Below, in pieces: positions 3,474 through 36,002 of a DNA stretch of 45,375 nt (positions are counted from its first letter, which is position 1; every line of letters begins with the position of its first letter). The stretch spans positions 1 through 45,375 of the forward strand of contig JABLUY010000272.1 in assembly GCA_013306675.1 (NCBI GenBank), given 5' to 3'. The DNA comes from Thraustochytrium sp. TN22 (taxonomy: Eukaryota > Sar > Bigyra > Thraustochytrida > Thraustochytriidae). The notes below the pieces were generated by a model. The model did not search any database. It worked only from the letters and a program-made list of their open reading frames with translations, and had not been told where the DNA came from. Position numbers and translations under genes: made by a program.

Positions 3474-5636
3474 TCAATTGGAGAAGACTTCAGAGCGGGA
3501 AATGGCTGCGGACGTGGACTCGGCGTGCAAAATGGCAGCCTCAGGACTTGCGTCGTTGCCGCCGCGAATCGTGGGCGAAGGCGAACGGTCTCGTGGCGGA
3601 GTGGCACGCTGCTGCTGCTGCGGCGGCGCTTGAGCTTGCCCGGGAGAGGACGGAGCTGGAGGAGAAGCGAGACCCATGAGGTCCAGGAGGCCACGCAGAT
3701 TAGAACCCTTTCGCCAGATGGCGTCGCAACCTGCAGTGCGAGCATCCTGCGCACACTGGCTGGACTCCTCGCCAGTGACCAGAATGAGGATCCCGGAGTA
3801 GCCGAGCTCGCGGATGCGGCGCGACGCGGCGAGGCCATCGAGTGAGCCGGGCATGTAAAGGTCCATGGTGATGGCATCGAAGGCATCTGAGCCTGCAGCA
3901 CATACTTGCTCGACGGCGGAGGCGCCATCCGAGACCTCCGCGATGACGACACTCCGGTCGGTCTTGGCGAGCTGGCGCTCAAGGTAGTTGCGCAGCATCA
4001 GGCGGTTGAGCGAGGTGTCGTCGGCAATGAGGATGCGGAGCGGGCCGTCTTGGGAGAGGTTACTTGGCGCGTCGGCGCTGGTGGTGCTGGCCATCGCGTG
4101 ACGGCCTGCATTCTGTGTTGCGGGGCGGCGGCGTTTCGGGCCAACCCGCTGAAAGGGCAGGCGGAAGGCAACGGTGAAGACGCTGCCGTGACCGTAGTCC
4201 GAGTCCACGGAGATGCAGCCGTCCTCACAGGTCTCGACGATGCGCTTAGAGAAGATGAGGCCGAGGCCGGAGCCGCCCTTGTCGAGCGAGGTGCCGTCCC
4301 GAGGGCGCTTGAAGGGCTGGAAGATCTTGGGAATGTCCTCGGGTAGGATGCCAGGCCCGCTGTCCTCAACGACAAAGCGGAGGCGCACTTCGCGACGGCT
4401 GAGGTCAGGGACGGCGGAAACTCGGAGACAGGCACGGCCTCCATCACGCGAGAACTTGACTGCGTTGCTAATGAGGTTGCGCAGCGCCTGGGTGAGCGGC
4501 TTGAGTGCGCCCTTGACGAGCGGGAGTGCGCGCACCGCAGGCTCCTCGACAAGCTCGAAGGTGACAGTCTTGGTTAGCTCGCCGGTGGCCATGGACTCGC
4601 CAAAGACAGAGAGGTTGGCGACGAGCTCGCGAGAGACGGAGAAGGGCACGACGCGCCCGCAGGAGGCGTCACCGGACGACTGCATACGCGCCAGGAGCAG
4701 GATGTTCTCCATCATGGAGGAGATGTTCTTGTGCGCGCGGTCGAGGATCTGCACGTCGCGGCGCGCCATCGAGGTCATGGCGTGGTTGCTGGTGAGCGAG
4801 TCAAGCGCGAGCGCTCCGGCGAAGAAGTGGTTGCGGTATTCGTGGCTGACAAAGTGGAAGATCGTGTGTAGGTGGTCCACCTTGGAGCCCTCGACGACGA
4901 GCAGCTCGTAGAGAAGCACGCGAAGGCGGAAGATGGCGTAGAGCGCACAGACCAAGAAGATGCCGCCCGCGACGAAGCGCGTGATCTGCGCAATGTCCAT
5001 TTGCAACACGTCGGCAAAGGTGAGGCCAATGTCAGCACGGGAGAAGAAGACGATCAGCACGAGGTGCGAGACGGCGCAGCTGAAGGACTCCTGCAGCAGG
5101 GCGGTCACGAAGAAGCGCTGCCAGAGCATGACGACCACGAGGGTGGACGACTTGACGCCGAGCATCTCAGCGTTCGCCTGCGGCATGCCGAGACCGAACA
5201 CGAACGGGTCCGCCACGAGAAAGGCGAAGCGCTGCGCCAGCAGGTGGTTGCGCGCCACGAGACGCATGAAGACAAAGAAGCAGATGCTTGCGATAAACTG
5301 GCGCGCGAGCGGCATGGGGAAGGCGCCGTTCCGCGCGATGGTTTCCGGCAGCAGAAAGAGCATCGAGATCAACGCGACGTAAATGACGTAGTCATTGGCC
5401 GTACGCAGCCAGCGTGACTGCGCCTCTCGGCGCAGCGCCTCGCTCGGGTCGCGCGGCTCCAGGCGCAGCGCGCGATCCGCATAGGTGCCCAGGCCCAGCG
5501 TGTAGGCCGCCTCCACCACGGGCGTGAGCACCAGCACGCGGTCCAGCGCCGCGCCGGCCTTGCGCGCCACCTCGTGCGCCGTCACGCTCCGCTGCGCCAG
5601 CCTCCGTAGCACGAGCGTCAGGACCAGCAGCCCCAT
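3474..5636 (-). CDS. Hybrid histidine kinase with multi-pass membrane sensor (paralog B)
   Basis: 720-aa paralog of the downstream gene, in the same orientation. The N-terminal part carries hydrophobic helices at roughly 82-98, 108-128, 136-150, 163-182, 186-200 and 220-245, leading directly into the H-box (FHFVSHEYRNH, His265). The ATPase has N-box LRNLISNAVKFS, G1 EDSGPGI, F-box FQPFKR and G2 GGSGLGLIFSKR. The receiver has IADDT (539-540), phospho-acceptor Asp592 (MDLYMPG), VTGEE and WRKG. Residues around the H-box, through ALALDSLTSNH, are nearly identical between the two paralogs, while the membrane segments are more diverged. That pattern fits tandem duplication followed by divergence of the sensor. 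Both tails contain an R-S-P-(S/T)-P motif. The ATG at 5636 opens the frame. The signal sensed is unknown. Confidence 0.92.
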   Translation of the reverse strand: MGLLVLTLVLRRLAQRSVTAHEVARKAGAALDRVLVLTPVVEAAYTLGLGTYADRALRLEPRDPSEALRREAQSRWLRTANDYVIYVALISMLFLLPETIARNGAFPMPLARQFIASICFFVFMRLVARNHLLAQRFAFLVADPFVFGLGMPQANAEMLGVKSSTLVVVMLWQRFFVTALLQESFSCAVSHLVLIVFFSRADIGLTFADVLQMDIAQITRFVAGGIFLVCALYAIFRLRVLLYELLVVEGSKVDHLHTIFHFVSHEYRNHFFAGALALDSLTSNHAMTSMARRDVQILDRAHKNISSMMENILLLARMQSSGDASCGRVVPFSVSRELVANLSVFGESMATGELTKTVTFELVEEPAVRALPLVKGALKPLTQALRNLISNAVKFSRDGGRACLRVSAVPDLSRREVRLRFVVEDSGPGILPEDIPKIFQPFKRPRDGTSLDKGGSGLGLIFSKRIVETCEDGCISVDSDYGHGSVFTVAFRLPFQRVGPKRRRPATQNAGRHAMASTTSADAPSNLSQDGPLRILIADDTSLNRLMLRNYLERQLAKTDRSVVIAEVSDGASAVEQVCAAGSDAFDAITMDLYMPGSLDGLAASRRIRELGYSGILILVTGEESSQCAQDARTAGCDAIWRKGSNLRGLLDLMGLASPPAPSSPGQAQAPPQQQQRATPPRDRSPSPTIRGGNDASPEAAILHAESTSAAISRSEVFSN

Positions 5637-26721: not shown

Positions 26722-28013
26722 TCACTCCCTGGCAGTGGTCCTAAAGTACTTGGCCAGCTGAGGCCCCTGCTGCGCCTGGTAGTTGTTGCTCTTGTCTGGA
26801 TGGCCATAGGGACGGGCTGGCAGAGAAGAGTTGTTGAAGAACTCCATGAGGCAAATGGGCTGGCCGTCGTAGACAGTGACGGTCTCGTGCGGGCGGACCT
26901 CAAGGACGCCCACCGTCCCATGGAGACTTCCATCGTGCCCGTAGCCAAAGCCAGGGTCAAAGAAACCGGCGTAGTGTGCGCGCAGCTCGCCCACGCGCGA
27001 GGAAAAGGGCACCATCTCTGCTGACAAGTGGTTGGGGATCGAGACGCGCTCCTTGGTCGCCAAAATGTAGAACTTGTCCTTCTCCAGTGTCACGGCCTCG
27101 CTGGGCGGGATGGGCCGAAAGAAGCGCTCCGCATCGTGCGCGCGCAGGCGCGCCAAATCGATCACGGCGCTCGTGGGCAGCGCCTCGAACCCGAGCACGC
27201 CGCCCGGCGTCGCCACCTGCAAGTTCAGACTCAGCACCAGCGCCCCGCGGTGCACCTGCGGCTCGCGAATCGGCTCGCCATCATGGTCGTAGCACAGTAC
27301 GTGCTGCCGCAGCGAGATGGGCGCCAGTGGTGGCGCCTCCGCGTCCGCCTCGGTCGACCGCCGGAACACCATCAGCTGCGACAGCGGCTGGTGCACATGC
27401 ACGCGCACATTGAAGCTGCGCGGCGACACCTCCATCCAGAGCTCGCCAGAGCCCTCCACCGTGTCGTAGAGGCCGCAGCCGTCAAAGATGCCGCGCACCA
27501 TGAGGTCGACGCGGCCGATGCTCGACTTGGGCGACAGCGATCCGATCAGGTCATCGTCCAGCGCCAGCCGCGCGCAAGGGAAAAGGTACGTTTGACCCTT
27601 GAGCAGCAGCACGCCATCCTCCTCGTGCACATCCTTCTTCTCCAGCACCAGATCGCTCGCCTCCGCCTGCACGAGAGCGCCAATGCTTTGCCGGTACGGC
27701 AGCACCTTGTCGCGCACCAGGTAGCACTCGCGGCCCACCGGCAGGTCCACGCTCGCGGGCTCTACGCACGAGACCAGCAGGTCCTCCAGCTCGGCGCTGC
27801 GCTCGCTGCACTCGCTGCGCGCGCCCTCCTGGGGCCCGCTCGACGCGCGCTCGATGAGCGCCACGCCGCCGCGCCGCACCAGCGCCTCGAGCTCGTGGTC
27901 CACGAGCGCCACGACCTCGGGCTCCATCACGCGCACCGCGTCGCCGCTGCCTTCGCCGCCCCGGCCGCCTCGGCTGCGCGCAGGCGTCCGCCTCAGGCAG
28001 GAGTTCTGCCCGC

Positions 28014-28051
<38 letters not shown>

Positions 28052-28215
28052 AGTGTCGTGGTTGACCGCCTAACCATCATCGCCGCCAGCCCGGGCCTGG
28101 CCATGATGAGGGTCGAAGTCATCGTCATCGAGACGTTGAACGTGACGCTCGTCCCGGGCCTCGTCCACCCCGCGCGCGGCGCGCGCGCGGCGGCGAGCGC
28201 GGCGGCGGCGCGCAT
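26722..28215 (-). CDS. Two-domain dCTP deaminase of bacterial type
   Basis: 497-aa protein whose residues from about 100 on match the long (about 370-residue) 2'-deoxycytidine 5'-triphosphate deaminase family best known from alphaproteobacteria, made of two dUTPase/DCD-fold halves. Visible family blocks: EPASVDLPVGRECYLVR, SPKSSIGRVDLMVRGIFDG, ELWMEVSPRSFNVRV and PLSQLMVFRR in the first half. The second half has VSIPNHLSAEMVPFSSRVGE, HYAGFFDPGFGYG and a C-terminal Tyr-Gln-rich tail (NNYQAQQGPQLAKYF). The reaction converts dCTP to dUTP and ammonia, feeding dTMP synthesis. The first 96 residues are extra: Arg/Ala-rich and then a poly-Pro run coded by a GGC microsatellite. They could be an organelle-targeting extension, or the true start could be Met97 (27927). 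Probable bacterial acquisition. Confidence 0.87.
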
Positions 28216-28508: not shown

Positions 28509-30296
28509 ATGGGCTTCTCGGGCGACATCGTGAGCGCGGCGGGCCACTACGAGGAGTTCGTGTGCGCCATCTGCGTGCAGCTCGTCGACCTGGAGGAGAG
28601 CGCGCTGACGGCCTGCTCGCACGTGTATTGTAGGTCATGTCTGAGCCAGTGGCTGGAGCGCAAGCGGACTTGCCCGACATGCAACAAGGACCTCTCGCTG
28701 CGAGGGTCCAGCGAGGCGCCGACCCTGCGCGCCGGCAGCCCGCTGGCGTGGCGCGTCCTCTCGCGCATCCGCGTCAAGTGCCCTCTGGGCGCCACCGGGT
28801 GCGCCTGGGAGGGCGACTACTCGGAGCTGCAAGCTCACCTGCAGTCCAGCTCGGAGCACGCCGAGAGTGCCGGCCGCGACGGCCGCGCTGCGGCGCTCGC
28901 GCTCAAGGAGCAGGCCAACGCCAAGTACTCCGCGCGCGCCTTTGCCGACGCGCTGCAGCTGTACTCCAAGGCCATCTCGTTCTGTGACGACATGCCGCCG
29001 CTCTACGCAAACCGTGCGGCCGCGCACCTGGCGCTTCTCAACTTTGACGCGGCTCTCGCCGACGCGCGCCGCGCCGCCAACCTGGACCCGACCTTTGCGC
29101 GCGCCTGGGTGCGCGCCGCCAAGGCGCTCGTCGGGCTCGGCCGCTTCGCCGACGCCGTCAGCCTCCTAGAAACCGCGCCGCCCGACCTGGCGCGCTCCGC
29201 GCCGGACCTCGCCGCCGCGCAGCAAAAGGTACTGCGCCTCGACGCGCTGTTCCGCGAGGCGCAGGCCAAGCTCGGCGCGGGCGACGCCAGCGCCGCGCGC
29301 GCCGCCGTCTCGCCCCTGCTCTCCGAGACCAGCGCGCCCAACGTGCTGCTGCTGGCCGCGCGCGTCGAATGCGAAGTCGGCAGCTCGCAGCGCGCTCTGA
29401 AGCTCGCACTCCAGGTCCTGCGCGCCGACGCTGCCGAGCCCGACGCCTACACGGTGCGCTCGCTTGCCATGCTCTACAATGCCGATGTGGACGAGTCCCT
29501 CAAGTACGTGCGCGAGGCGCTCCGCCTCAGCCCGGACGACCGCGAGGCGCTCGCGCTCTTTCGCCGCATCAAGAACGTCCGGGCTCGTTTCGCTGCCGCG
29601 CAGGACGCCCTCAACAAGCGCGCCTACGACACTGCCTGCGACGAGCTCACCAGCCTGCTCGACGAGGCCACGCCACCACGCCACGCCACGCTGCGCGCGC
29701 ACGCGCTCGCCGACCGCGCCAACGCGCACCATCGCGGGGGTCGCCACCAGGAGGCCTTGCGCGACTGCGCCACCGCCATTTACGTTCAAGAGGACAACAA
29801 GCGGGCCTGGCTCACCAAGCTCTATGCACTGCACGCGCTCGGCCGCCACCGGGACGCCCTGCGCGAGATCGAGCCCGTCATGCAGGCCTGGGGTCAGGCC
29901 GACGCTGTCATGCGCGGCGCCTACGAAAAGGCCCAGTTCGAGGTCCGCAAGGCCGACCGGCCGGACTACTATGCCATTCTCACGCCGCAGGCTGCGCCGC
30001 GTCCGCTCTCCACCGTCTCCTCCGAGCTGGAGATCAAGGCTGCCTACAAGCAGCGCGCGCTGGAGTGCCACCCGGACCGTCTACCGCCGGACGCGTCAGC
30101 ACCGGACCGCGCCAAGGCGGAGCACGACTTTAAGCTCGCCGGAGAAGCCTTGGAGATCCTTACGGACTCCTTTTCGCGCAAGCTCTACGACGAGGGCTTT
30201 GACAAGGCTGCAATTCAGGAGCGGATCCAGCGCGCACAGCAGCATGGCCGCGGCGGCGGCGGCGGTGGTGGTGGGCACCATGGTCATCACCACTGA
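28509..30296 (+). CDS. RING / TRAF-type finger / TPR / DnaJ fusion protein
   Basis: 595-aa protein combining a ubiquitin-ligase front end with a co-chaperone body. The C3HC4 RING is at 19-58 (Cys19, 22, 36, His38, Cys41, 44, 55, 58: CAIC..CSHVYCRSC..CPTC). A TRAF-like zinc finger is at 91-117 (CPLGATGC..H..H). TPR repeats resembling DNAJC7 run from about 130 to 465 (ALKEQANAKYSARAFADALQ, MPPLYANRAAAHLALLNFD, LADRANAHHRGGRHQEALRD). A J domain at about 486-563 has an intact HPD (521-523, ALECHPDRLP) that should stimulate Hsp70. The Gly/His tail ends HHGHHH. By analogy with CHIP, the likely role is coupling Hsp70/Hsp90 clients to ubiquitylation; this is inference. Single exon; AATAAA at 30313-30318 is a probable poly(A) signal. 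Confidence 0.92.
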   Translation: MGFSGDIVSAAGHYEEFVCAICVQLVDLEESALTACSHVYCRSCLSQWLERKRTCPTCNKDLSLRGSSEAPTLRAGSPLAWRVLSRIRVKCPLGATGCAWEGDYSELQAHLQSSSEHAESAGRDGRAAALALKEQANAKYSARAFADALQLYSKAISFCDDMPPLYANRAAAHLALLNFDAALADARRAANLDPTFARAWVRAAKALVGLGRFADAVSLLETAPPDLARSAPDLAAAQQKVLRLDALFREAQAKLGAGDASAARAAVSPLLSETSAPNVLLLAARVECEVGSSQRALKLALQVLRADAAEPDAYTVRSLAMLYNADVDESLKYVREALRLSPDDREALALFRRIKNVRARFAAAQDALNKRAYDTACDELTSLLDEATPPRHATLRAHALADRANAHHRGGRHQEALRDCATAIYVQEDNKRAWLTKLYALHALGRHRDALREIEPVMQAWGQADAVMRGAYEKAQFEVRKADRPDYYAILTPQAAPRPLSTVSSELEIKAAYKQRALECHPDRLPPDASAPDRAKAEHDFKLAGEALEILTDSFSRKLYDEGFDKAAIQERIQRAQQHGRGGGGGGGGHHGHHH

Positions 30297-30368: not shown

Positions 30369-33300
30369 TTAGAGCTCGCCCGTAATAGCACCAGCAGAAG
30401 CGCTCGCATTCGCGAGGCCAAGAGTCATGGCCTCAACCTGCTGGACCTGCTGGAGGAGGAGAACGTGGTCGAGCGTGGCGGTGATGCGAGCGAGGGCGTC
30501 GCGCACCTCGCGGTGCTTGGCGATCTGGAACTTGTTCTTGCGAATGTGCCGCGCGACCACAGCGCGACGCGTGCAGCGAAACGCCAAGACCTGCTCGAGC
30601 TCGCGCTTGTTGACGTCCGAAAGACGGCCCTGATCCTCCTCCTCCCCCGCCAACACCGGCACGACGGCATGGTGGCGCGTGAAGCGCAGGTCCGGGATGT
30701 CCGGGTCGTACAGCGAGGTCTTGCCGTGCAAAAGGCGAAAGCCGAGGTTCGGCACGCACGTGAGCAGGTTGATCGGGCTCGGCGCGAGCGGCATGAGGCT
30801 GTACTTTTCAATGAGCTGCGCCAGGGCGTAGAGCCACTGCACGCGCGCGGTCTGTGCCACCTGCTCGAAGCGCCGCGTCATCATGGCGATGAGCAAGTTC
30901 GTGAGCAGGACGGCCGCAATGAGCAGAAACACAAAGAGGAAGACCTGGTACAAGCGCGTGCGGAAGCCCTGGTTCGGGTCGTACGTGGTAAAGGCCTCAA
31001 AGACCGACCAGACGAGCGAGGAGAAGGCGGCGCCGGCCGTCTCGAAGCCAGCCACGTCGCTGCCACCGAGAAGAAAGACAAAGGCCAGAATAAACGCCAC
31101 CAGCACCACGGCCAGCAGCGCGAGGAAGCGCATCACGTCCCACACCACGTACTGCATGGTGATCCAGAGCGGACCGAGGTCCTTGCTGGCGCTGAATAAG
31201 TGGAAGAGGCGAAAGGTGGACAGCACGGCGCCGAGCGACATGAGAATGTCGTAGGCTGCCGAGCTGCGGTCCACGCAAAAGGCCGCCGCGACGATGGAGG
31301 TCGAGACCGTGTCGACCAGGTTCACCGAGTGCTGCAAAAAGGGCCCGACTCCGATGGCCGCCACCTGCTCCACAATGCCGGCGAAGTTGCCCAGGAAGAA
31401 AACGAAGAGGACCAGCTCCGCCGACGAGAGCGCCTCGTGCGTGCCGTGGACGCCGTCGAGCGCGTTGCTCGTGGCCAGGTTTGCGAACGCCAGCAGGTAG
31501 CCCACGTAAGACATGCTCCAGACCGACCACTTAAAGTAGCAGCAGGCAAACTCGGTCCGCGGCATGTCGACCAGCACGCGCAGCGGCCGCGAAAAGGGCA
31601 GGAACCACAGCACGGGCGTGAGGAGGATCAGCAACACGAGCAGACCAAGGCTCACGCACCCGCGATACGCGGATTGGATGGCCGTCTTGAGCCCCGGCAC
31701 GCGCAGCAGAAAGGCCACCACGCTCTCGTTGCGCGTCTTGCGGTCCACGTCTGTGCGCGTTGACTCAGGCCCGGCCGCCGCAATGCCGCCGTTGCCGCCG
31801 CCGTTGCCGCCCGCCAGCAGGGCCTCCGCACCGGGCGCCGGCTTGAACTGGAAGAGACTCGCCGAGAGATTCGCCAGGCTGCCCAGGCCGCGCGTGTAGA
31901 GGCTGTCGGCGGCGTCCTGAAACCAAATGGCGTCGTTCTGCGTCGTGAAGAACTTGTGCGCCACGACGCGCTTCAGCCGGTACTTGACCGCCAGGTACGC
32001 GCAGGTGGACTTGTGGCGGTTGGCCAGGGCGCGCGTGACGAGCGAGCCGTCCTCGCGGCGCCAGGACGGAATGTCGGCGCGCTCGCGCAGCAGCTCCTCC
32101 GCCTCGGCCTGGTCCTCGCAGCAGTCCAGGATTCCGCACACAATCTCCTGGAAGACGGCGGCGTGCGCCTGGTACGAGTCCCAGAACCGCTTCTGCAAGC
32201 CCAGCACGCTGCGCAGCACGTGTGCGCTCATGAGCGCGATGTGCAGCGGGAAGCGCGACTTGCTCACAAAGGCGCGAAAAATGGCCTCCTCCTCGGCGCG
32301 GTCGTCCAGCTCAATCACGCGGTGCAGGTAAAGCTGCAAGAAGGTCTTGTAGTAGTACGCCATCGGGTTGCAGAACTGCAGCACGACCTCCAGGGCGCGC
32401 AGCGCGGGCGCCATGCTCACCCCAGGACCTTCGTCTTCCTCCGCACCAGCGCCGCCGCGCATCTTCTTCTTGAGCGCCTCCTCTTCGTCCTCTTCCTCCG
32501 CAGGCAGCGCTTTCCAGATGAGCTTGCTGCCCAGGCTCGAGGCGGCCGCCAGCTCGCGCTCGATATGGTCCAGGAGCGACTTAAAGTACGCAAAGTTGTC
32601 CGCGCGCGGCAGGCTAGCGCGTAGTTCCTCACGCAGGCCGGCCGCGCCCGCGGCCTGGGCCGGGTCCACGCCGAAGAGCAGCCGGCGCCGGGAGCTGGCC
32701 TGTGCGCCAGGCTCGAATCGCAGGCGCGGCAGCAGCACGCCAAGGACGTCCACGGCGCCGTGCGACACGCACGAGTGCAGACACACTGAGTTGATCTGCA
32801 CGCTCTTGCTGCTGAGCAGGTGCTTGACCAGCGAGACGCGGTTCGCCACCGCCGCGTAGTATATCAGCGTGCACTGCATGCCGGGCTCCTCCGGCGCGTC
32901 CTCCGGCTGGTTCACCGCGAAAACGTCCATCTCCTGGAGCTGGTCCTCGCGCGGCGTCTTGAGGAGCTCTTGCGCGCGCAGCTGCGCGTCGCGCAGTTGG
33001 ATGCGCACCAGCGCCTCCACGGCGTCTCCGGCGCCATGCAGCGCCGCCACGCGCAGCGGGCTACGCCGCATCTTATCCCGCAGTTCGCTGGGATCCAGGC
33101 GGCTGCTCGCGGCGCTCGCATCGCCTTGCTCGTCGCCTTCTTCCGCTTTCAGGTCCGTCTCGATGCCGGTCCCCTCGCCGTCTTCGCCGCTGGCGCCCGG
33201 GCCCACCCTGCACAGCAGCTCGATGACGTCCACCTGGTTCGTCTTGGCGGCCTCGAAGAGCCAGTCGGCCAGCACCTTGGCGTCGCGCCGCGCCGGCGGA

Positions 33301-36002
33301 ACCAGGTCAAAGTAGAAGCGAACCTGATCGATGAGCGAGGTGGTCATGGCCTGGATGCGCGACCGCGTCTCCCATCGCCAAAAGTGCGTCGTCGTCCGCC
33401 CGCCTTTCCCATCCGGCTCGTCCGTGCAGAACGGCTCGTCGGGGAGGTCGGGCACCACGCACCGGAAGATGTGAAGCACGTACCGCGTCTCGAGGCCCGG
33501 AAAGGACGGCGAAGGCGCCACCTCCACCTGCGGCGCGTGCAGCGAGAGGATGCGGATGCTGCGCCGGCGCTGCTCCAGGGGCACGCGAGGGTGCTCGCGC
33601 TCAGTCCCGTCCTCGCCGTGGGAGTACATGCGCGGCTCGAAGAGCTCCTCGCTGATGCCGCGCAGCGCCGCGTCGCGCGGCGTCTCGCCTGGCTTGAACT
33701 TTTCCGCCAGCGTTTTGTACCGCACACGCAGGCGGCCGTCGCCCAGGCGCTGGTGCGTCTCCACAAGCACGCGCCGGTGGTCGCGCTCGTCCACGAGCTC
33801 CACCTTGGCCACGCGGATGAGGCGCAGGGGCCGCTTGCTGCCAAGCGCCGCCCTGCGCAGGTTGCGCCAGCTGCTGGTCGCACCGTCGCGCACTGTCGCC
33901 TCGCCGCGACCTGCGGACCATGAGCCCTTGCGCAGCGAGATGTTATTGCCCTGTTGTTGCAGGAGCGCGGCCTGCTGTTGCTGCGCCGCCTGCGGGCCGC
34001 CTTCGCCGCCGCCAGCGCCGCCGCCGCCGCCACCAGCAGCACCTTGCTGCAAGGCCAGGAGCGGGCTGCGGGCGGCGCCCGGCGCCAGCGCAATCGAGGC
34101 CTGCGCCTCGGTCGGCGAGGTGATGGTGAGGGTCGTCTCGCCCTTGTGCAGCTCGTCAACTAGCTGCTGCACAGTCTTCGCCTGGCCCGTGCCCCAACGT
34201 GCAGTGTCGACGCCGAGCCCCTGGAGCCAGCGTCGCAAAATGTCCTCCGTGATGTCGGCTGGGTCCTCCGGCAGGGTGTACTGCAGCGCCTTGATCTCCT
34301 CGTTGTGCTTGTGCTTTTCACGCTTGCGCGGCGCCTTGGTCTCCGACCAGAACTCTGCCATGCGCGACACGAGCGAAGAGGAAGGTGGGCGGTCCATGCG
34401 CGCCACGCGCGCGCGGTACGAGGCCGCGGCGCGCGCCAGCATACCATGGCCCAGACCACCTGTATCTCCGAGGCCACCCGCAGCGCCAAGGCCCTTTGCC
34501 TTCTTTGTCGCCTCGCCACTGCCGTCCGTGCCGTCGCCCAACGGGGACTGGGGCTGTTGCGCCGACGACTGTGCCTGTTGGAGGCTTGCGGCGTTGCTAT
34601 CGGCGCCGCCGCCCTCGGCGTTGGCGCCAAGGATTTTGGTTTGGACGTGTTCCGCGGGCATCCATTGCCAGAGCCGTACGATGTCCAGGTGCTGCTGGTC
34701 GACGGTGGTGAAGGAGCCGGCCTTGGGCACGCGCGGCGAGAGCATGTCGACCTGCAGCGTGTTCACATAGTACACGGTGCGGAGGCCCGGGAAGCTCTTG
34801 CTGTCGCGAAACTCGTGCGAGGGCCGCTCGAAGCCCGTCGGCTGCACCTTGTCCAGGATACTGGCGGTCTGCGTGAGGTTGCGTCGCCGTGCGTGCGGGT
34901 CGCGCGCAGCGCCAGCGTCTGCGTCGCTTGTGCTGCTGCTGCTGCCGTTGCCGTTGCTGCCGCTCGAGTCGGAGGTCGCACCAAAGGCGGCGCCGCCGCC
35001 GGAGCTGCTATCAATACCGGCGACCGGTCCCCACATGGCAAAGCCCAGCTCCTGTTGCACGTTGCGCAACGCCGCGTGGTAGGGCGACTCGCGGCGCTTT
35101 ACCTTGTAGGCGGGCAACGAGTGAACGTCGTGATGCTTGCGGTTCTGGTCGACCATCTTGAGCGCGTTGACCAGAATATATTTCGTCTCCGGCTGACGGA
35201 TCTTAACACGCACTAGGCGCACCACGCGTATGACGCCGCGGTCATCCGCATAGAGGTCACTCGCGTTGAGCCGCAGCTCCTCGTAGAGGTCCTCGATCGT
35301 CTTGTTGGACTGCTCCGCCTTCCAGCTGCCCCAGCTGATGCGGTACGAGCTGAGTTGATCTTCCAGGAAACTCAACGTGAGGCGCGAGCGGTCGCGCGGG
35401 ATGAGGGGCCGCAAGTTGCCCAGCGTGCGCAGGTCCTCCATGTCGTCGTCGGCGTCCTCGTCATCCAGGCTGCCACTGCCGTCGCCGCCGCCGTCGGGCC
35501 CGCTGCCGCCGCCGGTCGAAGCTAGCGTCGAGCGCGAGGCGCCCATCCCAAGGGCGCTAGTCGCGGCGGCCGCGGCGCTGAGCGCCGCGGCCAGGCTCGT
35601 GCCGCCTACGCTGGTCCCGCTGACGCCGGCGCCGCCCCCTGCGCCCGCGCCGGTGCTACTGCTGCCGCCGCTGCTGCGGCCCGCTGCCAGCTTGGCGCGC
35701 TGCAGCACGTCGCGCAGCTTGCTGCTGCTCTGCCCGCGCCTGAGCACGCGCACCTCGACCAGGACCTGGTCGTCGCGCTCGCTCTGCGCCGCCACGTGGG
35801 CCTGCAGCTCGGCGTCTGTGCGCAGCTCGTAGTTCACCTTGAGCCCGCTCGTCTGCACCACGAGGCGCCCGCCACTCGCCGCCGTCTCGCCCGCCACGGC
35901 GCGCCGCACGTCGCCCAGCGTCGCGAGCCCCCGCTCGCCCAGGTCCACGCGCAGCCGCCGCCGCTGCCCGCTCGCCGCATCCTCGAACTCCGCCACCAGC
36001 AT
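30369..36002 (-). CDS. Giant TRP-like cation channel with two Nudix-like modules and ankyrin-like repeats
   Basis: 1877-aa single-exon frame. Module A (about 215-450) starts with SWGSWKAEQSNKTIEDLYEEL, contains the degenerate Nudix helix SPYHAALRNVQQELGF (306-321) and later SFPGLRTVYYV. Module B (about 585-880) repeats that order: ARWGTGQAKTVQQLVDEL, then PGETPRDAALRGISEELFEP (771-790), then SFPGLETRYVLH. Both lack parts of the catalytic REUXEEXGU box, so they may bind rather than hydrolyse nucleotides. Ankyrin-like helices follow (about 905-1100; SPLRVAALHGAGDAVEALV). The channel domain has hydrophobic segments near 1450-1470, 1490-1510, 1527-1550, 1560-1577 and 1622-1648. A pore loop lies around 1655-1680 (SLVWSVFEAFTTYDPNQG), and S6 runs 1683-1708, ending LLTNLLIAMMTRRFEQV, typical of TRP/PKD channels. 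The C-terminal region is cytosolic. Ion selectivity and ligand are unknown; a Ca2+-permeable channel gated by a nucleotide metabolite is a hypothesis. Confidence 0.85.
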   Translation of the reverse strand: MLVAEFEDAASGQRRRLRVDLGERGLATLGDVRRAVAGETAASGGRLVVQTSGLKVNYELRTDAELQAHVAAQSERDDQVLVEVRVLRRGQSSSKLRDVLQRAKLAAGRSSGGSSSTGAGAGGGAGVSGTSVGGTSLAAALSAAAAATSALGMGASRSTLASTGGGSGPDGGGDGSGSLDDEDADDDMEDLRTLGNLRPLIPRDRSRLTLSFLEDQLSSYRISWGSWKAEQSNKTIEDLYEELRLNASDLYADDRGVIRVVRLVRVKIRQPETKYILVNALKMVDQNRKHHDVHSLPAYKVKRRESPYHAALRNVQQELGFAMWGPVAGIDSSSGGGAAFGATSDSSGSNGNGSSSSTSDADAGAARDPHARRRNLTQTASILDKVQPTGFERPSHEFRDSKSFPGLRTVYYVNTLQVDMLSPRVPKAGSFTTVDQQHLDIVRLWQWMPAEHVQTKILGANAEGGGADSNAASLQQAQSSAQQPQSPLGDGTDGSGEATKKAKGLGAAGGLGDTGGLGHGMLARAAASYRARVARMDRPPSSSLVSRMAEFWSETKAPRKREKHKHNEEIKALQYTLPEDPADITEDILRRWLQGLGVDTARWGTGQAKTVQQLVDELHKGETTLTITSPTEAQASIALAPGAARSPLLALQQGAAGGGGGGAGGGEGGPQAAQQQQAALLQQQGNNISLRKGSWSAGRGEATVRDGATSSWRNLRRAALGSKRPLRLIRVAKVELVDERDHRRVLVETHQRLGDGRLRVRYKTLAEKFKPGETPRDAALRGISEELFEPRMYSHGEDGTEREHPRVPLEQRRRSIRILSLHAPQVEVAPSPSFPGLETRYVLHIFRCVVPDLPDEPFCTDEPDGKGGRTTTHFWRWETRSRIQAMTTSLIDQVRFYFDLVPPARRDAKVLADWLFEAAKTNQVDVIELLCRVGPGASGEDGEGTGIETDLKAEEGDEQGDASAASSRLDPSELRDKMRRSPLRVAALHGAGDAVEALVRIQLRDAQLRAQELLKTPREDQLQEMDVFAVNQPEDAPEEPGMQCTLIYYAAVANRVSLVKHLLSSKSVQINSVCLHSCVSHGAVDVLGVLLPRLRFEPGAQASSRRRLLFGVDPAQAAGAAGLREELRASLPRADNFAYFKSLLDHIERELAAASSLGSKLIWKALPAEEEDEEEALKKKMRGGAGAEEDEGPGVSMAPALRALEVVLQFCNPMAYYYKTFLQLYLHRVIELDDRAEEEAIFRAFVSKSRFPLHIALMSAHVLRSVLGLQKRFWDSYQAHAAVFQEIVCGILDCCEDQAEAEELLRERADIPSWRREDGSLVTRALANRHKSTCAYLAVKYRLKRVVAHKFFTTQNDAIWFQDAADSLYTRGLGSLANLSASLFQFKPAPGAEALLAGGNGGGNGGIAAAGPESTRTDVDRKTRNESVVAFLLRVPGLKTAIQSAYRGCVSLGLLVLLILLTPVLWFLPFSRPLRVLVDMPRTEFACCYFKWSVWSMSYVGYLLAFANLATSNALDGVHGTHEALSSAELVLFVFFLGNFAGIVEQVAAIGVGPFLQHSVNLVDTVSTSIVAAAFCVDRSSAAYDILMSLGAVLSTFRLFHLFSASKDLGPLWITMQYVVWDVMRFLALLAVVLVAFILAFVFLLGGSDVAGFETAGAAFSSLVWSVFEAFTTYDPNQGFRTRLYQVFLFVFLLIAAVLLTNLLIAMMTRRFEQVAQTARVQWLYALAQLIEKYSLMPLAPSPINLLTCVPNLGFRLLHGKTSLYDPDIPDLRFTRHHAVVPVLAGEEEDQGRLSDVNKRELEQVLAFRCTRRAVVARHIRKNKFQIAKHREVRDALARITATLDHVLLLQQVQQVEAMTLGLANASASAGAITGEL

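Follow-up and report, generated by a model that had tools for sequence, protein, structure and literature searches.

Do channels that join a TRP pore to a Nudix domain all share the TRPM2 design, or has a protist put the two together separately and the other way round? The question is raised by an open reading frame (ORF) in a 45,375-nucleotide stretch of Thraustochytrium sp. TN22 (the whole of contig JABLUY010000272.1, assembly GCA_013306675.1; 'the window' below). The ORF, at 30369-36002 of the minus strand, opens with an ATG at 36002, closes with a TAA that ends at 30369 and has a product of 1877 amino acids; this one open frame runs unbroken from two Nudix modules through ankyrin repeats to a TRP pore. 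The Nudix-bearing channels described in PMC13143021 and PMC11479946 are TRPM2, its chanzyme forms (which occur also in unicellular choanoflagellates) and the sister TRPS, and in TRP channels the domain is the C-terminal NUDT9-H of TRPM/TRPS (PMC13143021, PMC11479946, PMC6461439, PMC3194816). Schistosoma TrpM homologues are also credited with Nudix hydrolase domains, in an account whose cited portion gives no position within the protein (PMC3194816, with PMC13143021, PMC11479946, PMC6461439). Among the matches listed from the open-licence literature (titles and abstract openings), there was neither a TRP channel with an N-terminal Nudix domain nor a Nudix-NACHT protein.

A single coding frame

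Over its 1878 codons the frame has one stop, the terminal one, and its sister frames on the same strand have 24 and 25. Third-position G+C lies between 0.73 and 0.97 in all 31 complete 60-codon blocks, and being even in this way it gives no break of coding signal on the way from the Nudix part to the pore. A low-complexity linker separates the first module from the second, and the 110 residues at the start of the protein have no match in Pfam or among PDB sequences at E values up to 10.

Two N-terminal Nudix modules

Pfam was run on the entire protein, with matches listed at E <= 1, and on its parts singly. The whole protein matches NUDIX at E 1.5e-7 in two stretches (31.9 bits, cut-off 21.1), and module 1 (about residues 196-462) scanned alone is also over that cut-off at 23.0 bits. 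For module 2 (about residues 570-905) the evidence comes chiefly from structure prediction: in the model of its core, 12 of 15 blocks have a predicted local distance difference test score (pLDDT) of 83-92, the best Foldseek match is RppH (4e-5), and each of the 36 PDB matches at E <= 0.001 is a Nudix/MutT-type or MutY entry, so that a Nudix fold is predicted. The low-complexity stretch between its predomain and core is modelled at pLDDT below 50 (model residues 59-154), and module 1 has a low-complexity insert within its core at about 326-380.

Alignment of these two modules with a third copy, on contig C418 of the same genome (below), divides each module into a predomain and a Nudix core. The aligned predomains have in common a conserved W, a K and an L-x-x-E-L ahead of the core, and two patterns, A-A-x-R in the Nudix helix and S-x-S-x-P-x-L-x-T-x-Y in a later strand, are invariant in all three copies. 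Sequence comparisons as they stand make module 1 a homologue of the other two. Its E value against module 2 is 2e-5 by BLASTP (as a single comparison), and a hidden Markov model (HMM) of modules 2 and 3 finds module 1 at E 7.8e-10, or 9.2e-6 if residues 1-560 are supplied, the best of 2000 shuffled copies reaching E 0.032. The homology is drawn from this two-sequence HMM, the pairwise BLASTP, Pfam and position, and not from searches with module 1 as query. Module 2 is 35-38% identical to the C418 copy and 25% identical to its tandem partner, which, with no more than three sequences compared, is only a hint of module movement from gene to gene.

Loss of the first Nudix-box glutamate

Against the consensus REUXEE, the boxes read RNVQQE in module 1 (313-318), RGISEE in module 2 (781-786) and RSVEKE in the C418 copy. 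The first Glu, the metal ligand expected of an active hydrolase, is absent from all three, being Asn in module 1 and Gly in module 2; in module 2 the opening Gly of the extended motif is also replaced, by Glu in our reading of the sequence. In NUDT9 the first box Glu takes part in Mg2+ coordination, and mutation of that enzyme to RILGEE leaves it inactive, as is human TRPM2, whose box is RILRQE (as given in PMC6461439). The channel resembles human TRPM2 in having lost the first Glu, which is consistent with binding without hydrolysis. Catalysis looks to have been lost from the Nudix modules, though for module 2, which keeps the E-E pair of the box, we infer this. Box degeneracy also sets the channel modules apart from RppH, DIPP1/NUDT3, bacterial ADP-ribose diphosphatases and NUDT5; over the 100 structural matches listed, identity to enzymes of this sort is 7-18%, and the Nudix hydrolases among them are tied, so that no subfamily is assignable.

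A TRPC-like channel

An Ion_trans match over the cut-off places the protein among TRP superfamily channels. Ank_3 reaches 22.8 bits on the whole protein (cut-off 22.3); with the ankyrin region scanned alone, Ank_3 (31.8 bits) and Ank_2 (29.5 bits) both exceed their cut-offs, and residues 916-998 weakly match NOMPC (E 0.0059). A putative filter stretch, FEAFTTYD, lies at 1668-1675. The PDB sequences matched are led by TRPC6 (8.9e-19) and TRPC3 (1.1e-17), with TRPC4 (4.7e-10), TRPM2 (6.4e-10), TRPC5 (8.4e-10) and the TRPM2 chanzyme (4.9e-8) lower, and all 60 of the 172 matches that were listed are TRP channels; the C-terminal part alone matches TRPC6 at E 2e-15. By these comparisons the channel is nearest to TRPC3/TRPC6 and not to TRPM2. 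The features expected of TRPC, N-terminal ankyrin repeats and the TRPC-type linker, are both present, and with TRPC3/TRPC6 the alignment extends over repeats, linker, pore and post-S6 region. It is unlike them in the some 900 N-terminal residues, two Nudix modules included, that precede the repeats. The canonical TRP box is EWKFAR, and the aligned position holds VQWLYA, followed by SPINLL, which aligns with PFNLV of TRPC6. Because of this non-canonical box, and of a score of 61.3 bits against the whole-length cut-off of 498.75 for the NCBIfam trp subfamily model TIGR00870, we call the protein TRPC-like and not a TRPC. A parasite genome survey reports finding neither TrpA nor TrpC homologues among the protozoa that it examined (PMC3194816, as far as its cited portion goes).

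With TRPM2, the TRPM2 chanzyme and TRPS the channel shares the joining of a TRP pore to a Nudix-fold domain. It differs in that its Nudix modules are N-terminal, are two in number and have each a predomain, and in that its pore is nearest TRPC. There is no Pfam Nudix match after residue 1760, and the 117-residue tail is too short for a NUDT9-H of about 300. No melastatin (LSDAT/SLOG) region appears in the whole-protein Pfam scan, which a very diverged copy may escape. An initial annotation of the window, made from sequence alone, had proposed that one frame at 30369..36002 joins an ankyrin/TRP-like pore to a Nudix part in an architecture separate from that of TRPM2, and on each of these points it has held up. 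Features that it had not noticed are the conserved predomain, by which each module is a two-part unit, the affinity to TRPC, the loss of the same first Glu as in human TRPM2 and the further module copy on a NACHT protein.

When the genome itself (37.9 Mb in 453 contigs) was searched with the pore part, eight candidates were scored and, apart from the query, an ankyrin-TRP gene was found (C66:69039-72689, minus strand, locus L017, 1217 codons). It is the only distant pore relative among those eight (22% identity to the pore part, 1.9e-7), and Pfam lists no Nudix domain on its frame. The channel repertoire is otherwise large, with at least 90 Ion_trans stretches, several of which lie in frames 2000-3300 codons long.

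A third copy on a NACHT protein

The third module is N-terminal in a frame of 3907 codons (C418:19054-30774, plus strand, loci L015 and L016), whose STAND-type architecture is immune-looking, and in a protist. The protein has the same predomain and Nudix module as the channel (38% identical to module 2), but fused to TCAD9 (4.1e-31), APH-like (APH, 1.1e-9) and NACHT (3.6e-9) domains, sub-cut-off HEAT-like repeats, and a second P-loop region in which NPHP3_N falls just short (24.6 bits, cut-off 24.8). With each module as query, no copy beyond the channel pair and this one was found in the genome: for module 2 nine candidates were scored and two, itself and C418, matched at E <= 0.001, and module 3 gave itself and module 2 from two. 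Among the 21 matches to the NUDIX family itself neither channel module appears, and since both escape that search, equally degenerate copies elsewhere may be missed. No relative was met in viral contigs (four queries) or prokaryote genome contigs (one query), each behind a strict pattern step, nor in the PDB, where the module profile had three chance-level matches (E 0.85-1.3); named eukaryote genomes lie outside these scans, and other protists may have the module or the whole architecture.

TCAD9 has nine matches in the genome, and further long frames with it (given here in part) are C420:152700-156600 (L031, 2358 codons), C420:340900-344600 (L030, 2341 codons) and C58:34600-38200 (L032, 1761 codons). 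These three were inspected besides C418, with a C331 match left aside as below cut-off. Their N-termini were rejected as Nudix modules (module HMM E 0.098-0.52). Two that are vaguely Nudix-like by eye did not stand out on profile comparison from 40 shuffles of each, an insensitive test in that a NUDT9-type segment failed it too.

That a NACHT protein has the module too is the strongest pointer to a portable sensor or regulator, and suggests a regulatory input and not an enzyme trapped by fusion. In prokaryotic conflict systems, Nudix and macro domains are named among possible actors on ADP-ribose or NAD+ (in PMC7159879), and by analogy this may bear on the eukaryotic protein of C418.

Table 1. 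Features of the channel ORF, by position in the window
Feature	Positions	Strand	Basis or remark
Whole ORF, 1877 amino acids	30369..36002	-	N-terminal region, two Nudix-type modules, ankyrin repeats, TRPC-type linker, pore, tail
Residues 1-110	35673..36002	-	Without family or PDB sequence match
Module 1 predomain, residues 196-255	35238..35417	-	Short helices about a conserved W, with strands after them; pLDDT 69-91 in blocks of ten residues
Module 1 Nudix core, residues 256-460	34623..35237	-	Pfam NUDIX and HMM of modules 2 and 3; box at 313-318
Module 2 predomain, residues 570-625	34128..34295	-	W-G-x-G-x-A-K-T pattern; blocks at pLDDT 41-69, low confidence
Module 2 insert, residues 626-724	33831..34127	-	Low-complexity, Gly/Gln-rich; between predomain and core
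Module 2 Nudix core, residues 725-895	33318..33830	-	Box at 781-786
Ankyrin-repeat region, residues 905-1110	32673..33290	-	Pfam stretch 1043-1092; wider extent putative
TRPC-type linker ahead of S1, residues 1248-1364	31911..32261	-	phmmer to TRPC3 (6cud), E 1.4e-5
Ion_trans / TRP pore region, residues 1523-1718	30849..31436	-	Pfam Ion_trans, 41.2 bits, E 1.5e-10
TRP-helix region after S6, residues 1719-1760	30723..30848	-	Alignments with TRPC6
C-terminal tail, residues 1761-1877	30372..30722	-	Sub-cut-off DUF matches only

Proposed function and its rivals

The reading that we favour, with somewhat better than even confidence, is of a TRPC-like, probably Ca2+-permeable cation channel, independently assembled, which has two non-hydrolytic Nudix modules in its cytosolic N-terminus and is gated through them by a ligand. 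Four subunits would form the pore, and the tandem modules in each would bind a small phosphorylated ligand without cutting it (ADP-ribose or another NAD-derived nucleotide is a first guess); the resulting movement may run via the ankyrin repeats and the linker to the TRP helix, there to open or tune the gate.

Several results weigh against it. Module 2 scanned alone is under the Pfam NUDIX cut-off, at 16.9 bits. Outside its insert the core of module 1 is modelled at pLDDT 41-81 by block, and of its 214 Foldseek rows the 50 listed, though all Nudix-fold by name or known fold, include none at E <= 0.001 (best E 0.057). As a query in its own genome (eight candidates scored, six matches up to E 10, itself included), module 1 recovers module 2 at E 0.078 behind an unrelated C47 frame (9.8e-4); phmmer over 3255 frames and shuffles puts C47 at 1.1e-4, a partial module 2 frame at 0.018 and the best shuffle at 0.024. 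By eye these other matches were set aside, C47 as a WD40/coiled-coil cilium-type protein, C216 (0.07) as a TPR protein, C11 (0.09) as a coiled-coil protein and C77 (0.19) as an antisense frame. The initial annotation's two N-terminal Nudix-like segments, degenerate at catalytic positions, are nonetheless upheld by the two Pfam stretches, the fold match of module 2, the homology of module 1 and the altered boxes. Its expectation of a Nudix fold was confirmed for module 2 and more weakly for module 1, that of a profile match for the whole protein and module 1 but not for module 2 alone, and the G-E-T-x3-A-A-L-R-x3-E-E motif is present, at 772-786 and not 771-786.

Degeneracy of the box in every copy, identities of only 25-38% between copies and low-complexity inserts inside or beside the cores would suit retired Nudix folds kept as structural or protein-binding scaffolds, for channel assembly or partner docking, with no small-molecule ligand. 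We hold this to be unlikely, if deserving of real weight, as the placement, tandem and N-terminal on a channel and single and N-terminal on a STAND-type protein, is that of input domains, and two patterns have stayed invariant in three copies. Quite improbable is an active channel-enzyme in which at least module 2 cleaves a nucleoside diphosphate derivative, in the manner of invertebrate TRPM2 chanzymes: its E-E pair and confidently predicted fold would allow this, but the Mg2+ ligand is replaced in both modules, the extended motif has lost its opening Gly (in our reading), and NUDT9 is inactive once its first Glu has been replaced (per PMC6461439). A false fusion, i.e. two adjacent genes or an accidentally open intron read as one protein, is very improbable; high G+C leaves many frames open, long ORFs overlap on both strands and the frame is a prediction from DNA, but 1877 stop-free codons beside well-interrupted sister frames, even third-position G+C and the recurrence of the module at the N-terminus of a second long frame all speak for one protein. 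Least probable of all, to a degree that we would nearly dismiss, is that the protein truly belongs with TRPM2/TRPS and has had its domains rearranged: the PDB matches do include TRPM2 chains, but TRPC6 and TRPC3 match far better, the pre-S1 linker matches TRPC3, Pfam gives ankyrin repeats with no melastatin/LSDAT domain, and a Nudix segment with what we take to be a NUDT9-type signature exists elsewhere in the genome, on C426.

Other observations in the window and genome

That segment (GGMVDPGE, REFMEE), presumably NUDT9-type, lies inside a 1236-codon frame at C426:134294-138001 (L028:2795-6502, plus strand), the remainder of which is by eye S9-type peptidase-like, so that either the fusion is an unusual one or the exon structure has gone unrecognised. 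The gene at window 28509-30296 (plus strand) stands tail to tail with that of the channel and encodes one protein in which a RING finger and TPR repeats are combined with a DnaJ domain at the C-terminus. At 26722-28215 (minus strand) is a two-domain dCTP deaminase (DCD_N and DCD_C), of a kind that we take to be bacterial and possibly acquired by horizontal transfer. Adjacent hybrid histidine kinases, here in a eukaryote, occupy 661-2967 and 3474-5636 (both minus strand); in both genes a response-regulator domain accompanies the histidine-kinase-type ATPase. Elsewhere the genome has an omega-3 polyunsaturated fatty acid synthase (3044-codon frame, 2539.7 bits, cut-off 1010.1) lying divergent to a neighbour (2083-codon frame) that matches the same model below its cut-off; a family search gave no match to the light-harvesting family. 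A thraustochytrid is what these features would suggest.

Implications

It is suggested, by analogy, that a single-celled eukaryote arrived separately at a TRPM2-like, metabolite-opened channel; a channel that is TRPC-like and has at its N-terminus tandem Nudix modules without the first Glu would have solved the TRPM2 problem independently. The channel would offer a clean test of how a retired hydrolase turns into a channel sensor, and of whether first-Glu loss is a recurrent route to it, with the copy on the NACHT protein providing a second, soluble context for finding the ligand. A more speculative extension, to which we give somewhat less credit than to the scaffold alternative, is that predomain and Nudix core together sense an internal alarm nucleotide (ADP-ribose-like, or a diphosphoinositol phosphate) as a receptor specific to this lineage, wired to a NACHT ATPase of STAND, immune type, as well as to a calcium channel. 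If so, a unicellular eukaryote would have a danger system based on a second messenger, with the logic of TRPM2 re-invented on a TRPC-type pore.
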